Shown: positions 1-11,062 of the stretch, piece by piece
Layout: each line of letters starts with the position of its first letter
Position numbering within the stretch: position 1 is the stretch's first letter
The notes under the pieces: generated by a model
Database searches by the model: none
What the model saw: the letters and a program-made list of their open reading frames with translations, nothing else
Told to the model about the DNA's origin: nothing
Translations under genes and position numbers: made by a program
Source of the DNA: an uncultured Succinatimonas sp.
GTDB lineage: Bacteria > Pseudomonadota > Gammaproteobacteria > Enterobacterales > Succinivibrionaceae
Length of the DNA stretch: 11,062 nucleotides
Direction of reading: 5' to 3'
NCBI GenBank assembly: GCA_900552905.1
Contig: USBR01000035.1
Coordinates: 1-11,062 of the forward strand

Positions 1-71
1 GAATTTTGTAACGAAAAAAAAGCTTAGAGAGGACTTAGAAAGTAAGAAGGGTAATGTATCTGAACAAATGT

Positions 72-102
72 AAAAAGCCATCTGTAAAAAATACAGATGG
101 CT
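72..102 (-). terminator. Rho-independent terminator closing the operon
   Basis: A perfect 11-bp stem (AGCCATCTGTA at 76-86 with TACAGATGGCT at 92-102) surrounds a 5-nt loop. In the minus-strand transcript it is followed by a run of U (complement of 72-76). It starts 7 nt after the last stop codon. On the plus strand there is no U-tract, so it acts one way. Bases 1-71 beyond it hold no supported feature. Confidence 0.88.
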
Positions 103-109
103 CAAGCGT

Positions 110-604
110 TTACATGGAACCGCCTAAAGCGTCATTGAGCTCGGCGACCTCACGCTGTAAGGTCTCATATTCCTGCTGCTTTTGCAAAATAGAAGCATTA
201 TCAGGAGTATTGCGCATATTATTAATTTGCGCCTGAGCATTATCAAACTTCTTCTTTAAAGAAGAGTTTAAAGATTGCTTTTGCGCTAAGCGCTGTTGCA
301 TAGCAGAAAGATCTTGATTGAGCTTATCTAAGTTCTTACGCTTTTGCTCATATTTAGCATGCACTAAAGAGCTTTCCTTTAATAAAGCCTCACTTTGTGC
401 AGCTAATGCCTGTTGCTCTGCTTTTAAGGCAGCAATATCAGCTTTTTTATCTTCAACACGTTGCTCATAAGAGCCTGAGAAGACACACCCCATCTTATTT
501 AAAAGGCTCGGATCGCCAATTGACGGATCGCATTCCTCAGGAGTCATAGTACAAGCACTTAAAAGACAAGCTGAAGCAATTACGGTTAGAAATTTAACTT
601 TCAT
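110..604 (-). CDS. Small coiled-coil lipoprotein
   Basis: This is a 164-residue lipoprotein. The lipobox is LSAC with Cys18, followed by Thr, so outer-membrane sorting is expected. A short Cys-containing segment (C25, C40; CDPSIGDPSLLNKMGCVFSG) precedes a charged coiled coil covering ~48-158. I recall similar small lipoproteins beside SrfA/PpkA-type genes, but I cannot name a function. It is the last gene of the operon, 12 nt after the other lipoprotein, with a GGATGA ribosome binding site, and its TAA is directly followed by the terminator. The two lipoproteins could form a coiled-coil pair or dock on the coiled coils of the FGE-like and VWA proteins; this is a guess. Confidence 0.85.
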   Translation of the reverse strand: MKVKFLTVIASACLLSACTMTPEECDPSIGDPSLLNKMGCVFSGSYEQRVEDKKADIAALKAEQQALAAQSEALLKESSLVHAKYEQKRKNLDKLNQDLSAMQQRLAQKQSLNSSLKKKFDNAQAQINNMRNTPDNASILQKQQEYETLQREVAELNDALGGSM

Positions 605-616
605 AAATCATCCATT

Positions 617-1324
617 TTAGCCACGAGCTAAACGATTTCTCTGAGAGGTGTAATCCTCAGAGATAGCGTATAAATTGTCACGCTCGGCCTTAAGTGAAGC
701 AATCTTAGTATCAAGCTCTGACAGCTTTTTCTTATCAGCTGCAGAGGTGCTGCTGGTCTGATACTGATCGCGAGCATACTTATAGGACTCGATCTTAGAA
801 TCGATACCCTCAACCTGCTCCTTGATGTAGGCAATATTAGCATCCATCTCACTGCTCTTCTGCTGCAGAGCCTTCTTATCAGCCTGTCCGGCAGCGACCT
901 TCTTCTCTAAAGCAGCCACAGCCTCGGTATCGCGCTTGATGAGGTCAGAAGCAGCTTTATTGACGCCTTTAACGGAATCGATATCTTTAACAACCATTTC
1001 CTTAGTGGCATCAAGCTGCTTTTCGGTGGTAGCATAATTAGATCTTACATTATCGAAGACATAGTTAGTAGCAATACCAACAGCACAACCAGAAGCACCG
1101 GCAATAGCAGCACAGGCAAGCTTATTATCAGCATTAGATAACATGCAACCTAAAACACCGATACCGGCACCGGCTAAACAGGACTTAATGCCTGAATCAG
1201 AGAAAAACTTAGCACCGCTCTCTTTTAAAGCAGGATCAACTTCAGCTGAACTAGAACCCTGATTAGCGCAGCCACTAGCTAAAACTGCAGCAAGAACAAC
1301 ACTTAATAAAGTCTTTTTAATCAT
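617..1324 (-). CDS. Glycine-zipper, coiled-coil lipoprotein, TagQ-like
   Basis: This is a 235-residue lipoprotein. The signal ends in VLASGC with the lipidated Cys at 19. The next residue is Ala, so the Lol pathway should carry it to the outer membrane. Residues ~42-90 are a small, Gly/Ala/Cys-rich hydrophobic stretch with glycine-zipper spacing (CLAGAGIGVLGCM, then CAAIAGASGCAVGIATNYV). It has four cysteines between about 49 and 80. From ~93 to 235 the protein is a Lys/Glu/Asp-rich coiled coil. TagQ of P. aeruginosa is the outer-membrane lipoprotein that retains TagR there, and position in an operon with TagR/S/T-like genes suggests the same role. The similarity in layout is an inference and not an alignment. 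The start has GAGGAA upstream in a 17-nt gap after srfA. Confidence 0.85.
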   Translation of the reverse strand: MIKKTLLSVVLAAVLASGCANQGSSSAEVDPALKESGAKFFSDSGIKSCLAGAGIGVLGCMLSNADNKLACAAIAGASGCAVGIATNYVFDNVRSNYATTEKQLDATKEMVVKDIDSVKGVNKAASDLIKRDTEAVAALEKKVAAGQADKKALQQKSSEMDANIAYIKEQVEGIDSKIESYKYARDQYQTSSTSAADKKKLSELDTKIASLKAERDNLYAISEDYTSQRNRLARG

Positions 1325-1341
1325 TTTTAATTCCTCAAATT

Positions 1342-3150
1342 TTATTTTCTAAGTTCAATGTTAAAACTGCTTTCATCGGACTTACCTTGTGAATAAACAG
1401 CTTTACATTGACTATCATTATTAGTGCCAGGGGCGCATTTAATCCTAGGCATAGTATATGAGCTCTTATCAGAGCAGATAGCCACAGCTTCATTTTCTAT
1501 CTGTAACTGGCCTGATACGATCTTGCCGTCCACTGGCGTTATACACTTTACTCCATTTTGACGCATAATTGTAGCCTTTCCCTTACCATTAGCATCAAAA
1601 CTATATTCTAAGTTGACAGGCTTTCCAGAATTTGCGTCTATAAGCGGGGATTTAACCTTCCAAGTGCCTTCAAGTTTCTTAACTGAACCTTGCTCTACAT
1701 CGCTTTGAGATAAATTCAAAGGCTTTGTATTAGCAAAAGGATCTGAGGAACTAGAAGCTGTATTTGTTGCATTAGCATCATCCTCCTCATCACTTAAAGT
1801 AGGAGGAATTACAGTCTGAGTGAGAGGCTCCTGCTGAGCTTGTGGCGTTTGAACCTGCTCTTGATTTACAGGATCAATCGGTGCATTGTTCTCAGTATTT
1901 TCTTTAGTGGCACTCAGGTTCTCCTGAACACTCTCAGGATCTACAACTAAATTAGGGGCGCCAACTTCTTTTTTTGCATTAGGCGTAACTACGTTCTCTT
2001 CATTAGGCGTAACTACATTCTCAGCATTAGGATCTAAAAACGCTTTAGGATCATAAAGAGGTGAATTAGGATCAATCACTAAATTACCCTCAGGATCTAA
2101 ATGCACCCCTTCGATATCCTGACCGTTGATAGCAATAGAACCGTCATCTTTAAAATCAAGCTTTAGATTGTCGACTAAAACGCCATTATCATCGCTGACA
2201 GTATAGGTACCATCAGGATTTTTCTTAAAATAATAGCGCTTAGAGTTAAAGACATAGCTAAACTCATCTTGCTGAGGAATAACTACAGCTTTAGGATCTG
2301 TTAGCTCAGCTTTCGGATCTGTTAGCTCAACGTTCGAGTCTTTTACCTCAGCTTGCGGGACGGTTACCTCAACTTTAGGATCGTTGACTAAATTAGGCTG
2401 TTGCTCTTTTACTACTACCTGCTTTTGTACCGGATCTGATGCTACTGGCACTACTATTTCTTTATTTAAAAGGTACTTCCACAAGAAGTAGCCCAAAAGT
2501 AATAGAAGTAGTAATAATAAGAGTAAAAGCCACCATAAATTGCGTCTAAAAAAACCCGCCTTTGCTACAGGAGCAGCTCCCGTAGCCACTCTCTTATAAG
2601 TTTCATTACGCTTATAGAGATCTCGATGCAAAGGTTCAAAAGGAGCGCCCTTTAAAGACAGGCGATCTTTAGTAAAGCCCCAAAAGGTAATTACCGGCTG
2701 ACCGTTGACAATGAAAAGACAATCATTGTCAGGAAAATGCAGGGCAGGTAAAACATCATTATCCTTTGAGCCATTGATAAAGTGTTCAAAGAGCTTGTCA
2801 TTTGAGGTCAAAGCCATAGCTTTAAGATCTAAACCATAATTGACGAGCTTCTCTGACATACGCTCCATCTTATCTAAAGCTTTACGCTTTTCATCGATAG
2901 AGGCACTTTGCCAGCGTACAATTTCATAATCCTCGCCTTTAGGACTATCAAAAGGCACAAACCAATCTAAATACTCCCCACCTTGTGAGGCCTTTGGAAT
3001 GGCTAAAAAACGAGTGATCTCCGGGCCTAATTGCTTTTCACGCTCTAAAGCATTACGAAAGGCTTCGGCTGATTTCCATACTAAAACACCGTCTTGACCA
3101 ATAGCGGCATATTTATTGATAGGGCCACTATTTAAAATCACCGAACGCAT
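1342..3150 (-). CDS. SrfA family membrane protein
   Basis: This is a 602-residue bitopic inner-membrane protein. The N-terminal ~200 residues match the SrfA family as I know it: YAAIGQDGVLVWKSAEAFRNAL near 14-35, FLAIPKASQGGEYLDWFVPF at ~48-67, and a strand with VNGQPVITFWGF at ~148-159. Next come FRRNLWW and a poly-leucine helix (~205-227), also typical of the family. A low-complexity spacer (~230-490) is rich in Asp, Pro, Asn and Val with short repeats (ELTDPKA twice; VVTPN-type). A C-terminal domain (~490-602) begins KKLEGTWKVKSPLIDANSGKP and carries four cysteines (536, 559, 572, 582). SrfA is known from srfABC loci of enterics, where it sits with SrfB and SrfC; its molecular role is unclear. 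The ATG lies 2 nt after the VWA stop, and AAGGAG, in the last VWA codons, is the ribosome binding site. Neither SrfB nor SrfC is in the window. Assignment rests on recalled family sequence. Confidence 0.82.
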   Translation of the reverse strand: MRSVILNSGPINKYAAIGQDGVLVWKSAEAFRNALEREKQLGPEITRFLAIPKASQGGEYLDWFVPFDSPKGEDYEIVRWQSASIDEKRKALDKMERMSEKLVNYGLDLKAMALTSNDKLFEHFINGSKDNDVLPALHFPDNDCLFIVNGQPVITFWGFTKDRLSLKGAPFEPLHRDLYKRNETYKRVATGAAPVAKAGFFRRNLWWLLLLLLLLLLLLGYFLWKYLLNKEIVVPVASDPVQKQVVVKEQQPNLVNDPKVEVTVPQAEVKDSNVELTDPKAELTDPKAVVIPQQDEFSYVFNSKRYYFKKNPDGTYTVSDDNGVLVDNLKLDFKDDGSIAINGQDIEGVHLDPEGNLVIDPNSPLYDPKAFLDPNAENVVTPNEENVVTPNAKKEVGAPNLVVDPESVQENLSATKENTENNAPIDPVNQEQVQTPQAQQEPLTQTVIPPTLSDEEDDANATNTASSSSDPFANTKPLNLSQSDVEQGSVKKLEGTWKVKSPLIDANSGKPVNLEYSFDANGKGKATIMRQNGVKCITPVDGKIVSGQLQIENEAVAICSDKSSYTMPRIKCAPGTNNDSQCKAVYSQGKSDESSFNIELRK

Positions 3151-3165
3151 ATTTACTCCTTACAA
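3151..3165 (-). promoter_or_regulatory. Perfect SD for srfA embedded in the VWA gene's final codons
   Basis: The mRNA reads AAGGAGTAAATATG, so the last two VWA codons (Lys-Glu) plus stop supply the SD of srfA at normal spacing. It fixes the srfA start at 3150 and suggests that the two membrane-anchored proteins are made in a linked ratio. Confidence 0.7.
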
Positions 3166-4928
3166 ACCTTTTGCACACTAGCGCCTGCGGCTTTGAGCTG
3201 AGATACAATCTGAGAGGCATTTTTCGGACTAAAGACCTTGCCTCCGGTATATTTGGCAATACAGGCAGCCTGCGAGGCATTACTGCCAATTAAAATGGTA
3301 TGGATCTTAAGCTTAGGCTTAAGAGCATGGATACGCTTAGCTAGCGAACAGACACTCATATTTGCGGTAAAAGGACAAGTATCCTCACCATCTGAGATAA
3401 GCACGCCTACAGCCTCAGCATTAACACCATCAACCATATTCATTAATGCCTGCAGACCATTTATAAGTGGGGTCTTACCGTCATAACGATAAGGATTGAT
3501 ATTGCGGATCTGCTGTCTGAGGGCACTACGACGAGTACCGGCATAGAAGCCGTGTTGCTTAGCCACAGGACAGCCATTAATTTCCACTAAACCGATACTG
3601 ACGTTTTTATCGGTATTTTGTACTAAAGCCTCAGAGGCACGAATTGCCGCCGATAAACGACTCTCGCCACCGCCTACATCACGCTCGAGCATCGATTCTG
3701 AACCATCAAAAGCGATAACAAGCTGTGGCATTTTGCCTTCTTTACGCAAAATCTCACATTTAGGCAGTCCCTTAGTCGAGTTTTGCGTACTTGTCGCCTG
3801 ATTTTTAACCTCTAAAGCCTTACGCTCTTGATCGCTTTTTTCTTGTTCAAGCTGAGCTTTACGAGCCGCTTCAGCTTTCTTTTGCTCCTCTAAAAGTCGC
3901 GCCTCTTCAGCTTTTTTCTGCTCTTCTAAAGCCTTAAGACGCGCCGCTTCCTCAGCTTTCTTTTGCTCTTCTAAAGCTTTAAGACGCGCCGCTTCTTCGG
4001 CTTTTTTCTGCTCTTCTAAAGCCTTAAGGCGTGCCGCTTCCTCAGCTTTCTTTTGTTCTTCTAAAGCTTTAAGGCGCTCCTCTTCCGCTTTTTTCTGCTC
4101 TTCTAAGGCTTTCTTTTGCTCTTCCTGAGCCTTAAGGGCAGCCTCCTGCGCTAAACGTGCCTCTTCTTCGGCCTTAAGCTTTTGTGCATTAGCCTCATCA
4201 AGAGCCTGCTTAGCTAAAGCTAATTCCTTATCATGCTCTTTTTGTAAAGCATCTTTATCAAGATAGGCTACAAGCTTATCAATATCGCTCTGTATCCTTT
4301 GATGTTGCGCTACAGCCTCAGGATAACCACGAAAAGCATTCCATCTATCTAAAAGCGTCCCTTCCTGAGGCCACGGTCTTAAGTAAAACCACCATAAAAG
4401 GCCTAAAAGCAGCAGTAAGAGTAAAAAAGCTAATAGGCATAAATAATGATGATTTTTAGCTGGAGCTGCCGATGCGGCTAGAGCTTTAGCATAATCAGCA
4501 AAAACCGCTGTCTCAGGCTCTTTGAGCATATAGGGCAAAAATACCGGAATAGAATTGCCTAAGATAAAGCATTGCGGGCTTTTTTCTAAAATCAGTGCTA
4601 AATCATATCGCTCAGACTCTAAAACTTCATTTGCTAAAGGAGTTTCAGCGCGTAAAAAATCGACAAAGAGCTGTAATCTCTCAGCATAGATCCCATAGAG
4701 ATTAGGATTAGTGCGCTTTAAAGTCGCAAGCGCTATTTCCTCGCTTTGTCCTTGCAAGCTAGTATTAAAGCTTATAAAGCTCCCCTCACAGATTACCTTA
4801 GGTAAGGAGCTCATAATTTCAGAGGAAAAGTGTCGCGACAATTCCTCCTGCCAAAGCGTCATATGCCTACAGATCTGTTGCGACTTTACGCCTAAAGAGT
4901 CTTGGGCGATACGATTTAGTCTAATCAT
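3153..4928 (-). CDS. Inner-membrane VWA protein on a TolA-like coiled-coil stalk
   Basis: This 591-residue protein probably has its N-terminus in the cytoplasm and its C-terminus in the periplasm. Residues 1 to ~155 are a domain I do not recognise. A Leu-rich membrane helix follows at ~160-183, ending in WWFYLRPWP. A long Ala/Glu/Lys/Gln helix then runs ~205-375, including 15-residue repeats (286-345) of the LKALEEQKKAEEAAR type, much like the periplasm-spanning stalk of TolA. The VWA domain is ~390-591. Its MIDAS is complete: D408-G-S410-E-S412, T486 in GKTPL, and D513 in ISDGEDTC. Cysteines at ~391, 453, 518, 527, 556 and 589 suggest disulfides, supporting a periplasmic location. The gene starts 8 nt after the FGE-like gene and ends 2 nt before srfA. 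TerY-like names may be given for the VWA domain, but there is no other link to tellurite resistance. A role as a tethered, metal-dependent adhesion or scaffold arm is inferred. Confidence 0.87.
   Translation of the reverse strand: MIRLNRIAQDSLGVKSQQICRHMTLWQEELSRHFSSEIMSSLPKVICEGSFISFNTSLQGQSEEIALATLKRTNPNLYGIYAERLQLFVDFLRAETPLANEVLESERYDLALILEKSPQCFILGNSIPVFLPYMLKEPETAVFADYAKALAASAAPAKNHHYLCLLAFLLLLLLLGLLWWFYLRPWPQEGTLLDRWNAFRGYPEAVAQHQRIQSDIDKLVAYLDKDALQKEHDKELALAKQALDEANAQKLKAEEEARLAQEAALKAQEEQKKALEEQKKAEEERLKALEEQKKAEEAARLKALEEQKKAEEAARLKALEEQKKAEEAARLKALEEQKKAEEARLLEEQKKAEAARKAQLEQEKSDQERKALEVKNQATSTQNSTKGLPKCEILRKEGKMPQLVIAFDGSESMLERDVGGGESRLSAAIRASEALVQNTDKNVSIGLVEINGCPVAKQHGFYAGTRRSALRQQIRNINPYRYDGKTPLINGLQALMNMVDGVNAEAVGVLISDGEDTCPFTANMSVCSLAKRIHALKPKLKIHTILIGSNASQAACIAKYTGGKVFSPKNASQIVSQLKAAGASVQKVCKE
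3894..4073 (-). repeat. 45-bp tandem repeats encoding the VWA protein's helical stalk
   Basis: Four consecutive 45-nt units encode LKALEEQKKAEEAAR (residues 286-300, 301-315, 316-330), the fourth (331-345) diverging at its end. A partial unit precedes them. The protein repeats are identical in three copies, while the DNA differs at synonymous positions, so the array is not a very recent duplication. Charge spacing fits a stable, extended single helix or coiled coil. Confidence 0.9.
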
Positions 4929-4936
4929 CAGGATAC

Positions 4937-6559
4937 CTATTTTTTATCCTTAACTAAGCTAAAGCATTTATCTACCCACAATTTGTGGTTAGCATCTCTA
5001 TCCTTATTAAGGGTAGGATAGGTCTTAATGGCATCATAATAGACGTCAATGAAATCATCTAAACCCGCATTATTTTGGCCCTGTGATTTTTTCGCTGTGG
5101 TTAAGAGATCTTTTAACATGCTCAAATTATAGGTTTCAGCAGCCTGTGACATGGTATCGCCATAATAGGTAACTAAACCTGTGAGCACTTTCTCCTCAGT
5201 TTTTAAAGTGTCCTCATGTTTAGCTTTAAGCTCACAGCCCTTAGGATCGGTTTGACAGCGACGTGTGGCGATATTTAACAGCGATTTTCTAATACCAATA
5301 TCGATATTTTGAGCGGCAATAGAACGACAGAGGAAGCCGCCTAAACGTAAATTTGAGGTGGCAGCTTGACGTCTTTCCTCATTCATCTGGGCATTGATAT
5401 CGCTAATCTGAGCTCTTAGAGCATTAAGCTGCGATACTAGCTTTTTATTAAGCTCTGAATCTCCATTACTTTTAAGCTTATCGTTCTTAGATTGTGTCTC
5501 TAATTCGCTAATTTGAGCTTTAAGAGAGTCGATCATCGCTAAAGTTTTAGCTTTATCCTCAGCTTTAGTGCTATCAGCCTCGTTTGATTCTGTACCTAAA
5601 GCCTCAATTTGCGCATTGAGAGCCTTAACGGACTTGGTGTCATGAGCCACACTCAAGGCTAAAACCAATCTACCGCCTAAATCACCACTGCGATTTTCCT
5701 TACCATTAATAAAATAAGGGCGCTCGGCACGCGTGGCATTAGATAAAGAGCTTTGAGGTGATTTAAAACTACCGCCACGCACCGTCATACCGCCACTTTG
5801 GCCTAAAAGACGATTAGTTCTCACGGCCTTAAAGGGCTCTTGGCACATCTCAAAGACATTACCTAAAATATCGTAAATACCCAGAGGATTAGGCTTTTTT
5901 AAACCCGGTAACTGTAATTTACCATTAGCTGAAGTCGGTCCTTGATACCAAGCATAGGCTCCTAGATCGTCATCACCTAAAGGCGGCAGATTTTCATTAA
6001 ATTCGCTCTTTGAAACATTCAAACCACCACGGGCGGCAAATTCCCACTCAGCATCGGTAGGTAAACGTGCATATGCATGCTCCTTACCATTTTTCGGCGC
6101 GTCAGCGGCTTTTTGCAGATACAGAGAATAACGACGAGCGGCCTCATTTAAATCAAAATAGGAAATATTGACAGCAGGTAATGCTCCCTTACGCTCAACT
6201 GTAGTCGGGCATTTATCTTGATTCATTAAAGCTTTATACTGAAAATCCATAAGCTCATATTTGGAGATCAGATAATAAAAGCCCTGATCATCTAAAAAGC
6301 CACCTTGTACATAGAGGCGATTGGGTTTTTGAGCTAAGGGGCTCTTATTATCAAGCGAGCCTGCTTGAAACGAGGCATCAGCACTCTTATTTTGATTATT
6401 GAGGGTAGTATAGACCTTACGAAAAACCATGGTCTGATTGCAGGGCATAGATACCACCACATCCTCACCATCAGGCTGCGGATTGCTAAAATCGGCTGCG
6501 TTAGCTGCATTTACCGACAAAATAGCCACTGCTAAAGCTAAAGTTTTACCAAATGTCAT
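4937..6559 (-). CDS. Secreted FGE-sulfatase (SUMF1)-fold protein with coiled-coil tail, TagR-like, catalytic cysteines missing
   Basis: This is a 540-residue periplasmic protein with a signal peptide (1 to ~21, VNAANA/ADF). The FGE/SUMF1 fold covers ~80-302 and shows LPTDAEWEFAARGG (~166-179), NPLGIYDILGNVFEM (~224-238) and RGGSF (261-265). True formylglycine-generating enzymes carry two active cysteines just after the RGGS motif. Here those positions read S267 and L272, and the usual GFRC ending is GGRLV, so it is probably a binding protein and not an oxidase. Residues ~308-402 form a coiled coil. The last ~130 residues are helical with cysteines at ~411, 435, 442 and 532. In P. aeruginosa the FGE-like TagR works in the periplasm upstream of PpkA, and the neighbouring ABC pair here supports the same role. 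The start has GAGG 8 nt upstream, inside the end of the permease gene. Confidence 0.88.
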   Translation of the reverse strand: MTFGKTLALAVAILSVNAANAADFSNPQPDGEDVVVSMPCNQTMVFRKVYTTLNNQNKSADASFQAGSLDNKSPLAQKPNRLYVQGGFLDDQGFYYLISKYELMDFQYKALMNQDKCPTTVERKGALPAVNISYFDLNEAARRYSLYLQKAADAPKNGKEHAYARLPTDAEWEFAARGGLNVSKSEFNENLPPLGDDDLGAYAWYQGPTSANGKLQLPGLKKPNPLGIYDILGNVFEMCQEPFKAVRTNRLLGQSGGMTVRGGSFKSPQSSLSNATRAERPYFINGKENRSGDLGGRLVLALSVAHDTKSVKALNAQIEALGTESNEADSTKAEDKAKTLAMIDSLKAQISELETQSKNDKLKSNGDSELNKKLVSQLNALRAQISDINAQMNEERRQAATSNLRLGGFLCRSIAAQNIDIGIRKSLLNIATRRCQTDPKGCELKAKHEDTLKTEEKVLTGLVTYYGDTMSQAAETYNLSMLKDLLTTAKKSQGQNNAGLDDFIDVYYDAIKTYPTLNKDRDANHKLWVDKCFSLVKDKK

Positions 6560-6562
6560 GAT

Positions 6563-7756
6563 CTAAGCCTCTCTTAAAGTTGTGGCGATACCGCTGTTTA
6601 CAATTTTGAATTTAACGCTGATCAGGGAAATGATAGCGGCCACGCTCAAAGACATAGCTAAAGCCACACTCACATGCCACCATGTCAGCACACTTACGGA
6701 TTCGCCTTGATTTAAATTGCTAGCAAAATAAAGATTAAAGATACTCTGTCCTAGATAGAAAAGACCTAAAGCCAAAGCAAAAGCCATAAAGGCTAAAAAT
6801 AGATTTTGACAGAGCACTAATAGGGTAATTTTATAGGGGCTAAAGCCCATCAAACGCAGTAAAGCTAAACTTTGATGTTGCCTACTGATATTTGAAAAGA
6901 CTAAGCCTGAAAGCGTAATCGCGCCGCCTATAATTGATACTAGGGCAATTACGAGGAAAATAATATTTAACACTCGCGCTATAGCTTTTACATTTTCAAT
7001 AGCGGCACTTTCATCGCGAATATTATAGTTTTGACGCAATTGCGCAGCTAAAGGGATCACATCATCGATGCTCTTAGCATAGATACGCGCTCTAGCAAAA
7101 CTCTGACGCAAAGAATTAGGTTTTGAACCATCGCCAAAGAGCTTAGGCTCATAACCGTCACGATAATCTTCCATAGCTAAAATCACATCTTTAGCTAAGT
7201 AAATAAGCGTGCGTGAAGTCGTAGCCCGTGACAGTACTCCCGCCACTTTAAAACTTTCAATACCGTTTTGCTTGCGCCCATCGACTATACGCGAGATCAC
7301 AAGCTTAATCTCATCGCCACTTTTAACCCCTAAATCAGAGGCTAAAGATGCAGATAAGAAGGCCTCATTATCAGCTAAAACATGATCGATTTTACTAAAG
7401 CTTACTAAAGGATCACCTTCTTTAGTTGGCACAGCTTCAATATTGCTCTTAAACTTTGAAGAGGATTTAAGATTGCAAGTAAGACTTAAAGCACGGGTTA
7501 ATTCCACATAAAAGCCCACATGCGGATTTTTAGCTAAATCCTCAAAAAAATCAGGCTCAAGAGTATAGCCTGAGAGCATTTTGATCTCTAAATTATTAGG
7601 ATTAGCCGCTAAATCATGCTCAGCCTTACTGATAATACCAAAGCGTAAGGAAAATAAGAGCAATAAGGGCGCTATCACCGCGGTCATAGCCATGATGATA
7701 CATAGACTCATAAGTCTATCGGCATTAAGCGATCTTAAAGATAAGGAAAAGATCAT
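6563..7756 (-). CDS. FtsX/LolC-type ABC permease, TagS-like
   Basis: This 397-residue inner-membrane protein has the FtsX/MacB plan. TM1 is at ~15-37, a large periplasmic domain of ~210 residues follows, and TM2 (~263-288), TM3 (~309-335) and TM4 (~360-382) are at the C-terminal end. The family's conserved cytoplasmic loop is seen as LLRLMGFSP (~299-307). I chose the ATG at 7756 because its ATGA overlaps the TGA stop of the ATPase by 4 nt and a GGAG lies 5 nt upstream. A GTG at 7771 would add five residues and is less likely. Such permeases usually transmit ATP hydrolysis as mechanical movement to periplasmic partners and do not form a channel. The partner here is probably the FGE-like protein encoded 3 nt downstream, or the lipoproteins. 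The matching P. aeruginosa protein is TagS. Confidence 0.92.
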   Translation of the reverse strand: MIFSLSLRSLNADRLMSLCIIMAMTAVIAPLLLLFSLRFGIISKAEHDLAANPNNLEIKMLSGYTLEPDFFEDLAKNPHVGFYVELTRALSLTCNLKSSSKFKSNIEAVPTKEGDPLVSFSKIDHVLADNEAFLSASLASDLGVKSGDEIKLVISRIVDGRKQNGIESFKVAGVLSRATTSRTLIYLAKDVILAMEDYRDGYEPKLFGDGSKPNSLRQSFARARIYAKSIDDVIPLAAQLRQNYNIRDESAAIENVKAIARVLNIIFLVIALVSIIGGAITLSGLVFSNISRQHQSLALLRLMGFSPYKITLLVLCQNLFLAFMAFALALGLFYLGQSIFNLYFASNLNQGESVSVLTWWHVSVALAMSLSVAAIISLISVKFKIVNSGIATTLREA

Positions 7757-7775
7757 ATTTGCTCCATACACTTAA
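7753..7775 (-). promoter_or_regulatory. ATGA stop/start overlap with internal GGAG, coupling ATPase and permease
   Basis: The permease ATG (7756-7754) shares bases with the ATPase TGA (7755-7753). GGAG (complement of 7763-7766), inside the last ATPase codons, is the ribosome binding site, 5 nt from the ATG. This decides the permease start and implies translational coupling, which suits subunits of one complex. Confidence 0.75.
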
Positions 7776-8469
7776 AGACACTGTGATTATCTGAGCTCTC
7801 TTTTCCATCATAAGCACAATTATAAAGACCATGTCTTATAACCGCCTCGGTATCATGGGTGACTACTAAGACGGCAATATTGAGACTTTTAGCGCACTCG
7901 ATAATGCTCTCAAAAATCTTCTCGGCATTGACGGGATCTAAAGCTGAGGTCGGCTCATCGATGAGCACTACTTGCGGACGATGGGCTAAGGCTCTAAAGA
8001 ATACCGCTCTTTGTCTTTGACCTATGGAGAGTTGATGGGGTTTAAGCTTTAAAAGCTTGTCCATATCAAAGCGCTTAAGCTGTGGCATTAATGCGTCGAT
8101 ATAGGCGTTAACTTCACTGCGCTTTAGATCACCATGAGCTAAGCGTATTTGTAGCTTTAAATTATCTTCAAAGCTTAAATACGGTAATAATCCACCTGAC
8201 TGCGGCATATAGCCTAAAACTTGCGCGCGCCTACGTGCTTTTTGTGCTTCAGAAAGTGAGCTTAAATCCTCACCTTCAAAGCAAAATTTAGTCGCTGTAA
8301 ATTGCGGGCGCAATAAGCCTATACACTCTAATAAAGTCGATTTACCTGAGCCTGACACTCCTGTGAGGGCACATACCTGCCCCTTTTCAAGGCTCAGGGC
8401 CGTGAGCGTGATGGTAAAGGCACGCTCATCGGCATAGACATAGCTTAAATTTTCAATTTCTAAAAGCAT
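7753..8469 (-). CDS. ABC transporter ATPase, TagT/LolD-like
   Basis: This is a 238-residue cytoplasmic ATPase that should energise the permease encoded next to it. All ABC motifs are intact: Walker A GVSGSGKST (~37-45), Q-loop MPQSG (Q90), signature LSIGQ (~147-151), Walker B VVLIDEP (~167-173) and the switch His in VTHD (H205). I chose the ATG at 8469, whose product begins MLLEIENLSYVY, the normal ABC beginning. The frame is open up to 8520, but that extension (MSLRLYIQ...) is unlike the family and overlaps the end of the VWA gene. The ATG is 4 nt after the VWA stop, with only a weak SD. In P. aeruginosa the equivalent ATPase next to an FtsX-like permease and an FGE-like protein is TagT. LolD and MacB-type ATPases are close relatives. 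The neighbours favour a TagT-like role over lipoprotein export, though the sequence alone does not settle this. Confidence 0.93.
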   Translation of the reverse strand: MLLEIENLSYVYADERAFTITLTALSLEKGQVCALTGVSGSGKSTLLECIGLLRPQFTATKFCFEGEDLSSLSEAQKARRRAQVLGYMPQSGGLLPYLSFEDNLKLQIRLAHGDLKRSEVNAYIDALMPQLKRFDMDKLLKLKPHQLSIGQRQRAVFFRALAHRPQVVLIDEPTSALDPVNAEKIFESIIECAKSLNIAVLVVTHDTEAVIRHGLYNCAYDGKESSDNHSVFKCMEQI

Positions 8470-8473
8470 AGAC

Positions 8474-10408
8474 TTAAGGCAGCATATCAAAAGGAATTGG
8501 ATATACAGCCTCAGACTCATCGGCCTTAGAGTTAAGCTTTAGCCAGCGTGAGGTATCGTCATTAGCTTTCTGATAGTATTGAATTTTGCTCTCTAAATCG
8601 GCAATGGTCTGATTTTGCTCATCAGCGCCCATACTTGCCCAAGTATCCTCATCAAGATCGGAAATCAAGCTCTTATACGGCAGACCATCAAGATATTCAT
8701 CTAAAAGGCCTAACTCGGATAATTTTAAAGTTGAGCTTTGTGACAGTTGATTAGGATCACGACCTAAGCTTACAGCAATGGAGCGTAACTGAGAGAACAT
8801 TGCCTCAGGCTCTAACATACCGGTATTAGCAGCTTCCAAAATTTGAGAGGTGATCTGCTTTAGATTACTCAGCTGTAACTTATTTAATAAGGTTACAGGG
8901 GTAGCGGTAATACTAGAGTGCTCAAATAAGTCTCTATCACTCATCCAGCCTTCAAAGAAGGTTGGAGCTTTGGTATTTTGAGTAGAACCTAAATAGGCTA
9001 ATTGCATGGCCTTACCTAAAAGTTCGGTATCTTTGAGCATTTGATCTTGCTCATCGTTAGCACTATTAGCAGAGCCTGCAGTTAAATCACCACTACTTGC
9101 CTGCATTACCTGAATGGTTAAAGATTGAGCTAACTCATCGACACGCTTACCAAAGGCATTTACATCACCAGCCTTTACCGGATAGTAAAGGGATTTATTG
9201 ATGACCTTATTAAAGGTTAATTCCTCATATTGAGCTTTAGCCTTGTCATGATTGTGATTGCGCTTACCTGAAGCGGTTAAGAGGTGTAAAGCATAGATAG
9301 CCGCACCATGATGCTCAGCTTCGGCACGTAATTCCTTAGCATCAAGACCTGTTGATGAATGCTTATTATTACCTTCAATGGCACCAGCATCGGTAATTAA
9401 GACGATATAACGACCGCCATAATTATTCCAATTGATCTTATCTAAGGCCTCGCTAATACCACTATAAGCATCCTCATCAAAAAGCGAGCTTGAAACTTTA
9501 GCTTGATTTAAAGTCTTAAGCTTAGCCATGAGATCCTCACGGTTATTAGCCTCACCTGGAGCTACATACATCTTTGAGGTGTATTCAAGACCCGGAACTG
9601 CTTTGACATCGGATCTAAAAGAGACGATACCAAAGTGTACGCTATCTTGTAAATTTTCCTTTTCAATTTGATCATAGATATCAGATACAGCCTTACGGGT
9701 TCTATCGATATACGGTTGCATGGAAATTGAAGAGTCGATAACAAAGACTACTGCAGCCTTAAAAGCCTTAAGCTCGGATGCTACCGGATCGCTTGACTTA
9801 TTAGTTTTAACTGTAGCTTTATCGGAAACTGAACCTATGTGTAAAAGACGGGTATAGTTACCGTCAGCGAACATAGACTCCTGTGCCTCTAATATTGGCA
9901 GGAGATAGAAATTCTTTTTCCAATCTACATAGGTGGCAGGCTCGATACTGACAACACCCGGGGCACTTTCCCCTTTTTCAGCATGCTCGAGCAATGACAA
10001 TAAGGCCTGACTTTGATCAGGACTATCGTTTTCTACAAAGTTTAATAAAGACTGATCGGTATCAAAGATCAAAGAACGCTTACGAGCGGCCGGATTTGTG
10101 AACATCAAGGCGCTTTGCATCTTCCAATCGATAACGCAATCAGTCTTTAAATAACCTTCAATCTTACCCTTAGTATCATTACCTACAGCCACGAAATCGC
10201 CATCGCGCTCATAGACATAATATTGATTGAAAGTAGGCACTAAAGGACCATCAGTATCGGTCTTATTAGCGTATAACGGGCAAGGGGCGGTAGTTAACAC
10301 GCGCTGATATAAGCTCTCCTTACCTTCCATTTTTAAAGGCTCGGCAGCATTAACCTGTGAGACAACTAGCATCACAGATGCTAAACTCAGAATTTTTTTT
10401 AACTGCAT
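8474..10408 (-). CDS. Secreted VWA-domain protein resembling the periplasmic half of T6SS kinase PpkA
   Basis: This is a 644-residue protein with a cleavable signal peptide (residues 1 to ~21, ending VNA/AEP), so it is periplasmic. Residues ~33-95 look like a bacterial SH3-like module. The segment that follows, with DWKMQ...AxMFTNPAARKRSLIF at ~94-115, resembles as I recall it the region before the VWA domain in PpkA. The VWA domain spans ~217-430. Its metal site (MIDAS) has D225-S-S227-I-S229 in VFVIDSSISMQPYIDRTR and the second Asp at D340 (LITD). The usual MIDAS Thr position has a DEDA motif (311-314) instead, as in VWA subclasses with a PED-like loop. The C-terminal ~200 residues are helical. 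In P. aeruginosa this region is fused to a cytoplasmic kinase and a membrane helix; here it stands alone. The start gives a good signal peptide, but its SD is unusually placed. The stop is 4 nt before the ABC ATPase gene. Family assignment is from remembered similarity and not from an alignment. Confidence 0.85.
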   Translation of the reverse strand: MQLKKILSLASVMLVVSQVNAAEPLKMEGKESLYQRVLTTAPCPLYANKTDTDGPLVPTFNQYYVYERDGDFVAVGNDTKGKIEGYLKTDCVIDWKMQSALMFTNPAARKRSLIFDTDQSLLNFVENDSPDQSQALLSLLEHAEKGESAPGVVSIEPATYVDWKKNFYLLPILEAQESMFADGNYTRLLHIGSVSDKATVKTNKSSDPVASELKAFKAAVVFVIDSSISMQPYIDRTRKAVSDIYDQIEKENLQDSVHFGIVSFRSDVKAVPGLEYTSKMYVAPGEANNREDLMAKLKTLNQAKVSSSLFDEDAYSGISEALDKINWNNYGGRYIVLITDAGAIEGNNKHSSTGLDAKELRAEAEHHGAAIYALHLLTASGKRNHNHDKAKAQYEELTFNKVINKSLYYPVKAGDVNAFGKRVDELAQSLTIQVMQASSGDLTAGSANSANDEQDQMLKDTELLGKAMQLAYLGSTQNTKAPTFFEGWMSDRDLFEHSSITATPVTLLNKLQLSNLKQITSQILEAANTGMLEPEAMFSQLRSIAVSLGRDPNQLSQSSTLKLSELGLLDEYLDGLPYKSLISDLDEDTWASMGADEQNQTIADLESKIQYYQKANDDTSRWLKLNSKADESEAVYPIPFDMLP

Positions 10409-10451
10409 ATTCTCAACTGCATCATCTTAAAAGATTGATGCAGTCCTCCTT
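10409..10451 (-). promoter_or_regulatory. Strong Shine-Dalgarno separated from the VWA gene start by a hairpin
   Basis: In the mRNA, AAGGAGGA (complement of 10444-10451) is followed at once by an 8-bp stem, ACTGCATC/GATGCAGT (10437-10444 with 10416-10423). Inside the stem is a short ATCT/AGAT extension. About seven nt then remain before the ATG at 10408. In linear distance the SD is ~35 nt from the ATG, too far for normal initiation. With the hairpin folded the distance is about 7-8 nt. There is no U-tract after the stem, so it is not a terminator. I see no convincing promoter in this 72-nt gap. Confidence 0.55.
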
Positions 10452-10480
10452 AAAAAATTTACACCAAATCTTAAAACTCT

Positions 10481-11062
10481 TTACTTTTGTAATTTATCTA
10501 AAGCACTCTGAGCTTCAGGATTATTTCCACTCTCTAAGACTTTTTGATACCAGTAAATTGCACTATTAGCATCTTTTAAAATGCAATTATTGCCATAAAA
10601 TACATTAGGATCAGCGTACTTAGCATATAACATGGCTAAATTAGAATTACCTTTACGACCTAAAGAAGTTATCAGGCGCTTAGCTAAATCACAACGACCG
10701 TTAACTAAAGCATCCTGAGCTAATTGCTCTAACTGCTCAGGTTTAGGGCTTGAAGCTAAGCAATTTTTAAGTAAAAGCGCATCATTAGTCTCAGTTAATT
10801 TGCAGGCATTATTAGTTTCCTCAGACTCAGTAGTAGCAGCTTCTGGTTCTGCACCCTGAGCTTGTTGCTGAGGCTCTTCTACCTTAGTTTCATCGACATT
10901 GACTTCTGGAGCAAAAGACTTCTTAGTATTAGGTTTCTCAACTACTGTTTCATTAGCCTGAGGCTCTTCTGCTACAGGCTCATTAGCCTTAGGCTCTTCT
11001 GCTATAGGCTCATTTACCTTAGGCTCTTCTGCAGCAGGCTCATTAGCCTTAGGTTCTTCTGC
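10481..11062 (-). CDS. C-terminal part of a Pro/Glu-repeat protein with a Sel1/TPR-like tail (5' end outside window)
   Basis: An open frame runs from the right edge (codons in phase from base 11062) to a TAA at 10481-10483, giving 193 residues with no visible start. The first ~40 residues are four copies of a 10-residue Pro/Glu/Ala repeat of the form AEEPKANEPx. An acidic Gln/Glu-rich linker follows up to about residue 85. The rest is helical and has four cysteines (about residues 87, 101, 124 and 160), which suggests disulfides and an oxidising compartment. The tail, with AIYWYQKVLESGNNPEAQSAL at about 168-188, looks like a Sel1/TPR-type helix pair. It sits 72 nt upstream of the PpkA-like VWA gene in the same direction, so it is probably co-transcribed. 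By context it could be the periplasmic end of a membrane-anchored Ser/Thr kinase, which this type of locus would need, but no kinase motif lies inside the window. The function is therefore not assigned. Confidence 0.8.
   Translation of the reverse strand, partial: AEEPKANEPAAEEPKVNEPIAEEPKANEPVAEEPQANETVVEKPNTKKSFAPEVNVDETKVEEPQQQAQGAEPEAATTESEETNNACKLTETNDALLLKNCLASSPKPEQLEQLAQDALVNGRCDLAKRLITSLGRKGNSNLAMLYAKYADPNVFYGNNCILKDANSAIYWYQKVLESGNNPEAQSALDKLQK
10943..11062 (-). repeat. 30-bp tandem repeat encoding a 10-residue Pro/Glu unit
   Basis: Four consecutive 30-nt units (11062-11033, 11032-11003, 11002-10973, 10972-10943) encode AEEPKANEPx-type decapeptides. The array reaches the window edge, so the full copy number is unknown. 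The last unit (Q for K, T for P) is degenerate. It lies in the stalk of the truncated upstream gene and most likely forms an extended, rigid periplasmic spacer. Confidence 0.85.

Follow-up and report, generated by a model that had tools for sequence, protein, structure and literature searches.

A PpkA-like ectodomain without a kinase in an SrfA-encoding operon of Succinatimonas: a candidate envelope machine

What do the Srf proteins do for the bacterium that encodes them? Ever since work on Salmonella, annotations have listed SrfA, SrfB, and SrfC as virulence factors, and there is no agreed function for them. The question is raised by a stretch of 11,062 nucleotides from an uncultured Succinatimonas sp. 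of the family Succinivibrionaceae (contig USBR01000035.1, positions 1 to 11,062; hereafter the window), in which TagT-, TagS-, and TagR-like proteins are encoded together in one operon with SrfA and two von Willebrand factor type A (VWA) proteins, VWA1 and VWA2. A preliminary description of this DNA proposed that these are parts of a single trans-envelope machine, possibly working without a type VI secretion system (T6SS). The present analysis points to a module built around the periplasmic half of PpkA without its kinase, which in relatives lies beside SrfB and SrfC. Our leading, still tentative, explanation is a kinase-free TagQRST-type sensor of envelope damage or tension that is coupled to a trans-envelope SrfB/SrfC machine, and not to a kinase and T6SS.

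The central observation concerns VWA1. Its residues 15-644 align with residues 381-1006 of a Pseudomonas PpkA from a T6SS locus (L031; 34% identity, E 8e-99), whose transmembrane (TM) segment, at 330-348, lies N-terminal to the aligned part. VWA1 itself begins with a signal-peptide-like segment, no Pkinase match was found by Pfam in its 644 residues, and the alignment covers the PpkA ectodomain only. As judged from this alignment, VWA1 corresponds to the complete periplasmic half of PpkA, minus the kinase. A PpkA kinase had been expected from the preliminary description; instead, in 14 of 15 Succinivibrionaceae genomes searched, drawn from 37 with a full-length TagR-like gene (a match at E<1e-110), Pkinase matches at E<=1e-10 were absent. 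One genome (G001) has a single match, and the T6SS control genome (G030) gave four.

Does the missing kinase follow the partner of the module? Carriers of VWA1-type proteins were sought with profile A4 in 398 Pseudomonadota genomes (the phylum of G034 and its locus L043) and in 395 genomes from the phylum of a Desulfovibrionaceae metagenome-assembled genome (MAG; G025, L025), with up to three candidates scored per genome, so that carrier counts are lower bounds. At least 15 of the 398 Pseudomonadota genomes carry such a protein, kinase-fused in six and kinase-free in nine. The open frames of all six fused versions span 1017 to 1189 amino acids and match a kinase hidden Markov model (HMM), and TssM, TagF, PppA, and TagQ flank every one of them (L132-L137). 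Eight of the nine kinase-free carriers have SrfB/SrfC: adjacent in seven (L107, L125-L130), and in the eighth (G102) divided between two contig ends, one with the core, the other with SrfABC and a SEL-like start (L115, L116; SEL is described below). The ninth (G329, L131) has no recognized partner. In this sample, then, kinase fusion tracks T6SS (6/15) and the kinase-free form tracks SrfBC (8/15). In the second phylum at least 25 of 395 genomes are carriers; none of the 28 loci fetched has a kinase-HMM match, 17 adjoin SrfB/SrfC, and 11 do not, at least four of the latter (L139, L155, L161, L162) ending upstream at contig ends.

A FastTree phylogeny of VWA1, the ATP-binding cassette (ABC) ATPase, the FtsX permease, and the TagR-like protein of formylglycine-generating enzyme (FGE) fold (50 tips, midpoint-rooted) separates the T6SS loci as a clade of their own, with 13 tips and a support of 1.0. 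The tree omits L107, which is the same as L043; L019, in which VWA1 is split; and loci with fewer than three of the four genes. The window groups with L108 (0.999), then L001 (0.996) and L043 (1.000), three srf loci of Succinivibrionaceae. Strict monophyly does not hold for the srf loci: L022 falls among them, and L023, labeled Srf on account of an incomplete SrfC at the edge of its contig, lies outside; L044, shown as "kinase" in the tree, has no kinase-HMM match and is wrongly labeled. A split version of PpkA occurs in Allochromatium warmingii, where a separate Ser/Thr kinase gene (L018, 4324-5973) directly precedes a kinase-free VWA1 and the core.

The remainder of the core is recognizably that of the TagQRST-PpkA-PppA system of Pseudomonas, the threonine phosphorylation pathway of the H1-T6SS, with which it shares the order PpkA ectodomain, TagT, TagS, TagR, often followed by a lipoprotein; identities to the corresponding T6SS proteins of L031 are 35, 31, and 26% for TagT, TagS, and TagR. 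The window differs in having no kinase domain, PppA, TagF, or TssM and in its separate clade, while in its relatives SrfB, SrfC, and SEL occupy the place of PppA, TagF, and TssM. The TagR-like protein has the FGE fold (PF03781, 86 bits against a cut-off of 23.3). In FGE structures 6muj and 2q17 two columns after RGGS hold cysteines, which we take to be catalytic; because these are replaced by S and L in the window protein, its sequence suggests a likely pseudoenzyme. As for TagQ, the lipoprotein candidate LP1 aligns with the TagQ family in hhalign (97.3%, E 2.7e-11, against 0.4% for a control comparison) and has no match to the TagQ model NF041250 at E<=0.01. Its lipobox, ASGC, was recognized by eye, the strict lipobox pattern giving no match. 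The TagQRST-like module of the preliminary description stands for TagR, TagS, and TagT, with LP1 as a possible remote relative of TagQ.

These same parts could be read as an ABC mechanotransmission exporter of the LolCDE/MacB kind for a lipoprotein or other envelope substrate, with the Srf and VWA proteins as assembly factors. Among the models matched by the ATPase, those for LolD, bacteriocin export, DevA, and DarD score highest, every one below its cut-off; the permease has four TM segments, the operon ends in two lipoprotein-like genes, and copies of the module without a recognized partner exist. On the other hand, no window protein matches an outer-membrane channel or HlyD-type adaptor above a curated cut-off—LP1 touches the HlyD model at 16.7 bits against 208.65, a coiled-coil match—and in P. 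aeruginosa the same parts serve signaling (PMC11881912). With the stalked single-pass proteins and SrfBC also left unexplained, we regard an exporter as unlikely.

What lies beyond the right edge of the window, upstream of this minus-strand operon? The preliminary description proposed to look there for SrfB and SrfC, among others, and held that a full T6SS cluster at that position would speak against it. In the relatives mapped—by tblastn and, for later loci, also with HMMs built from proteins of this analysis—SrfB and SrfC, and not T6SS genes, are found there: L043 has SrfB (PF07520), SrfC (PF10139), and a full SEL directly upstream, in that order (Pfam), as do L001 and L108/L109 (tblastn). 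The notion of one conserved module including Srf proteins is borne out by this arrangement. The order SrfB-SrfC-SEL-VWA1-TagT-TagS-TagR recurs in Proteus, Xenorhabdus, Aggregatibacter, Pantoea, Atlantibacter, Siccibacter, several Pseudomonas (the P. vranovensis type strain, L011, carries the operon), and a Burkholderiaceae MAG. Downstream lipoproteins are present in most such loci and were not found in Pantoea, Atlantibacter, and Siccibacter (L005, L006, L013); VWA2 was not found in these three nor in the Proteus (L028) and Xenorhabdus (L014) loci. VWA2 and SrfA precede the lipoproteins in the window, L043, and L108, and SrfA stands upstream of SrfB in others (L125, L127).

The assignment of SrfA itself is secure: the window product scores 220.7 bits with the SrfA model NF040486, above the curated cut-off of 150, as the preliminary description had it. 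Profile comparison relates the N-terminal domains of SrfA and VWA2, a link that direct BLAST between the two window proteins does not recover. For SrfC, predicted models of relatives show a GTPase domain fold with a P-loop, and their best structural matches are bacterial dynamins and mitofusins. Identity to bacterial dynamin-like proteins (SynDLP, the C. jejuni dynamin-like protein pair, BDLP, IniA) is 9 to 15%, about 285 residues separate two motifs, and the C-terminal third is poorly modeled; on these models SrfC, which is encoded outside the window, is probably a dynamin-like GTPase. A sequence search of solved structures with SrfC returned six antibody chains, which are noise. SrfB contains DIGNSR and DIGGGTTD, presumably motifs of the actin/Hsp70 type. 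Its open frames run to about 1270-1420 amino acids in many Succinivibrionaceae against 983-1049 in six other genomes of a class sample, and within the family the alignment to the SrfB profile is often interrupted near position 125, a sign of a possible insertion. Two genomes (G157 and G288; L112 and L113) have SrfB with neither SrfC nor a tag-type core detected.

Earlier reports placed these proteins in a different light. In host-associated Deltaproteobacteria, srfABC was described with tagQ, ppkA, ligA, and mostly tagRST, T6SS machinery being present in only one genome (PMC3608642, 2013), and in X. stockiae T6SS control genes adjoin srfABC (PMC6950479, 2019). SrfABC might act on eukaryotic cells as effectors or as a tripartite toxin, with the Tag-like module controlling or powering release: Xenorhabdus SrfABC is cytotoxic to insect and HeLa cells (PMC6950479), and PpkA-triggered export of SrfC was suggested in 2013 (PMC3608642). 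We find this improbable. The PpkA-like protein has no kinase, and SrfA is predicted to be a single-pass membrane protein with a domain common to VWA2. A dynamin-like SrfC, and an SrfB with motifs that we read as actin/Hsp70-type, would both be typical of cytoplasmic machines. TssC was not found in 19 of the 37 Succinivibrionaceae genomes that have the operon, other secretion systems lying outside that search.

It follows from these reports that the headline is not new, since an srf-tag neighborhood was already in print in 2013, there mostly without T6SS (PMC3608642), and again in 2019 (PMC6950479). In the parts of these papers on which we draw, the gene is named ppkA or assigned to "T6SS post-translational control", and effector or toxin roles are proposed; here VWA1 is kinase-free and SrfC appears dynamin-like. 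What our analysis adds is the kinase-free PpkA ectodomain, the split by partner, and the dynamin-like SrfC. In searches of the open-licence literature, preprints apart, none of the titles and abstract openings listed suggests a kinase-free PpkA or a dynamin-like SrfC.

How far does the module depend on T6SS? Neither the open reading frames (ORFs) nor Pfam reveal a T6SS gene, PppA, TagF, or TssM in the window, as described before; the wider claim was tested on relatives only. PppA, TagF, and TssM were not found in the SrfBC loci mapped, and a PppA-like phosphatase, looked for in fetched loci only, turned up only beside T6SS. In a family sample of 56 Succinivibrionaceae genomes, SrfB was found in 47, TagR-type genes in 47 (37 at E<1e-110), TssC in 31, and SrfA in 43 (34 over cut-off); these genomes are largely MAG-like in fragmentation, and single absences are therefore weak. 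All 37 genomes with a full-length TagR-like gene also match SrfA and SrfB. SrfB and TagR share a contig in 29 of them, 8.0 to 14.4 kb apart, and lie on different contigs in eight. SrfB and TssC are not associated across the 56 genomes (p 0.72, kinship ignored). In the class sample of 229 genomes (SrfB 7, TagR-type at E<=1e-20 6, TssC 46), SrfB and TagR occur together in 4 against 0.18 expected (p 5e-6, kinship ignored). TssC was likewise not found in four roughly single-contig assemblies carrying SrfBC and the core (G225, G696, G668, G600), in the first of which TagR is about 250 kb away. Together with the 19 of 37 above, these genomes support the view that the module exists without TssC. The alternative, that the module serves in trans as an accessory to a T6SS whose genes lie elsewhere, is largely contradicted and very improbable: TssC does occur in 18 of the 37 genomes and in 24 of 36 behind loci of mixed type, but these 19 and the four roughly single-contig genomes lack it, SrfB is not associated with it, VWA1 has no kinase, and no PppA was found in the srf loci.

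How, then, might a kinase-free sensor coupled to SrfB and SrfC operate? TagQRST-PpkA of P. aeruginosa is reported to sense outer-membrane damage or breaches (PMC11881912). By analogy, the lipoproteins and TagR would read a disturbance of the outer membrane, and the ABC pair, like MacB or LolCDE, would spend cytoplasmic ATP to move or reset a complex in the periplasm. In PpkA the ectodomain would serve to bring kinases together; that of VWA1 may here engage the stalked VWA2, SrfA, and SEL, whose cytoplasmic domains would recruit SrfB and SrfC. Single-pass stalk proteins would be a natural link to both, and SrfB and SrfC of Xenorhabdus co-precipitate with SrfA when the operon is expressed in E. 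coli (PMC6950479). Bending, tethering, or repair of the inner membrane by SrfB and SrfC could follow at the damaged site. Because the sensing and ATPase parts are the same and the kinase domain is absent, the output would be mechanical or by direct contact, and a dynamin-like SrfC points to membrane remodeling or repair, the role proposed for FtsZl1/vWA/GTPase loci (PMC2875224, 2010). The parts, identified by sequence, may sense, remodel, and function as one machine.

Several results weigh against this explanation. Across both phylum samples, 12 of 43 loci have no recognized cytoplasmic partner, at least four of them cut by contig ends. Kinases are encoded somewhere in two srf genomes outside the family (two in G003, one in G225), with none seen within the fetched srf stretches. 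The 18 TssC-positive genomes among the 37 have been mentioned; in addition, 10 of 47 SrfB-positive Succinivibrionaceae have no full-length TagR-like gene, and in 3 of 7 SrfB genomes of the class sample TagR gave no match at E<=1e-20; in two of these three, SrfC was also not found in the fetched stretch. As the module can be missing where SrfB or SrfBC is present, either the coupling is not obligatory or the MAGs are incomplete. The SrfC model has a mean predicted local distance difference test score of 72.8, low whole-chain TM-scores, and only four Foldseek matches at E<=0.001, and a sequence search with SrfB found no solved relative. Membrane remodeling by SrfBC is argued from analogy.

If the proposed coupling holds, an obscure locus becomes a testable envelope machine, with Srf proteins that travel with a kinase-free PpkA ectodomain and an SrfC that is probably a dynamin. 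Not only does the VWA1-TagT-TagS-TagR core appear to be the damage-sensing part of the T6SS response, but it is also retained as the output varies among kinase plus T6SS, SrfB/SrfC, tubulin, and none recognized. This suggests that the Srf proteins may be the bacterium's own membrane machine rather than part of a secretion weapon. A bolder and more doubtful extension is that the T6SS "tit-for-tat" sensor represents one application of a kinase-free damage module that is older or more widespread and whose commoner partner is SrfC with SrfB, that SrfABC is a self-repair or remodeling response to outer-membrane injury and not virulence secretion, and that the PpkA kinase is an exchangeable output domain.

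The FtsZl1/vWA system, proposed to remodel membranes, offers a useful comparison: there, envelope proteins accompany a vWA protein, a GTPase, and a cytoskeletal NTPase (PMC2875224). The relatives of the window have SrfB/SrfC and no tubulin. Tubulin_2, which we take to be FtsZl1, is absent from the window (Pfam) and from the SrfBC loci mapped. Only L022 and L046 carry a Tubulin_2-type gene. The text of PMC2875224 has no mention of "ABC transporter"; FtsX and FGE were not looked for in it. In these two loci, from a Methylococcaceae MAG and Magnetospirillum, the Tubulin_2-type gene lies upstream of the VWA1-ABC-FtsX-FGE core (L022 1602-4598, Pfam; L046 1956-4982, 31% similar to that of L022), a case of an exchanged cytoplasmic NTPase. 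A module with no recognized partner—the core with lipoproteins and mostly a longer FtsX (L119, L121-L123, L131, L138, L140, L152)—forms a second locus type in Succinivibrionaceae and the Desulfovibrionaceae-MAG phylum.

Within the window, nine tightly packed minus-strand genes are followed by a terminator (Table 1), and the order, strand, packing, and closing terminator claimed earlier agree with the ORFs, family matches, and hairpin. Eight of the genes had been named; the ninth, at the right edge, encodes SEL and had been passed over. Intergenic gaps are mostly 2 to 17 bp, the largest being 72 bp before the VWA1 gene. The ABC ATPase start was refined to 8469, an ATG 4 bp past the VWA1 stop, and the FtsX start to 7756, in an ATGA overlap with the ATPase stop. 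For the terminator, the hairpin at 103-75 has a folding energy of -18.9 kcal/mol (z -5.9), which none of 200 shuffles equals. Pfam families in the window are PF00092, ABC_tran, PF02687, PF03781, and PF13519, and the closest named homologues are from Succinivibrio, Anaerobiospirillum, and Aeromonadales MAGs. The same arrangement is seen again in Proteus, Xenorhabdus, and genomes of the Desulfovibrionaceae-MAG phylum, and is therefore not due to chance.

Table 1. Features of the window and the evidence for each
Feature	Position	Strand	Evidence
SEL: single-pass inner-membrane protein, C-terminal part, cut by the window edge	10481..11062	-	ORF; 46.5% identity to L043 5032-6057
VWA1: signal-peptide-like start, equivalent by sequence to the periplasmic half of PpkA, without kinase or TM; metal ion-dependent adhesion site (MIDAS) DSSIS	8474..10408	-	PF00092 2e-7; PpkA alignment
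TagT-like ABC ATPase (LolD/MacB class), Walker A and LSxGQ present	7753..8469	-	Pfam/profile matches
TagS-like FtsX permease, 4 predicted TM, large domain between TM1 and TM2	6563..7756	-	PF02687; hydropathy
TagR-like FGE-fold protein	4937..6559	-	PF03781 4e-24; alignment with FGE 6muj/2q17
VWA2: SrfA-type N-terminal domain, one TM region, TolA-like stalk (45/90-bp repeats at 3894-4106), C-terminal VWA with MIDAS DGSES	3153..4928	-	
SrfA: N-terminal domain, TM 205-223, Pro/Glu/Asp-rich linker, C-terminal domain	1342..3150	-	NF040486 4.8e-65
LP1: likely lipoprotein with coiled coil and a small Gly/Ala segment, possibly a remote relative of TagQ	617..1324	-	hhalign
LP2: short coiled-coil lipoprotein, lipobox LSAC	110..604	-	ORF; similar genes in relatives
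Intrinsic terminator	75..103	-	hairpin fold

A role in anti-phage defense was considered and set aside, as PADLOC, run on seven of the nine window proteins, gave matches only to general ATPase domains in the ABC ATPase (mad3 the best, at 88 bits) and to the LP1 coiled coil. Among related loci, the ABC ATPase and permease are apparently fused in one frame in two second-copy loci (L154 7284-9335; L159 10905-12980), and several of the proteins P0099-P0113 combine an FGE domain, about 44-48% identical to that of the window over about 60%, with Sel1 repeats.

The C-terminal domain of SEL is helical and Sel1-like by eye, with no Pfam match. Its full-length relative at L043 has a TM segment at 166-184, and the predicted model of the L028 relative shows an N-terminal beta-sandwich, a TM-length helix at 182-204, and a helical C-terminal domain. 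A forkhead-associated (FHA)-like domain was considered for SEL and rejected: the N-terminal domain of the model resembles immunoglobulin-like beta-sandwiches, although nothing in the PDB matches it at E<=1e-3, a weak result, and no genome search for FHA was made. The SEL linker consists of 30-bp in-frame tandem repeats encoding Glu and Pro (10950-11062), and the VWA2 stalk of in-frame 45/90-bp tandem repeats encoding Lys, Glu, and Ala (about 3894-4124); both are likely variable in length. In Aggregatibacter kilianii (L004, 12880-18707), three tandem VWA2-like genes are accompanied by a fourth, SrfA-like gene, and at least the first and fourth match the N-terminal part of the SrfA model.

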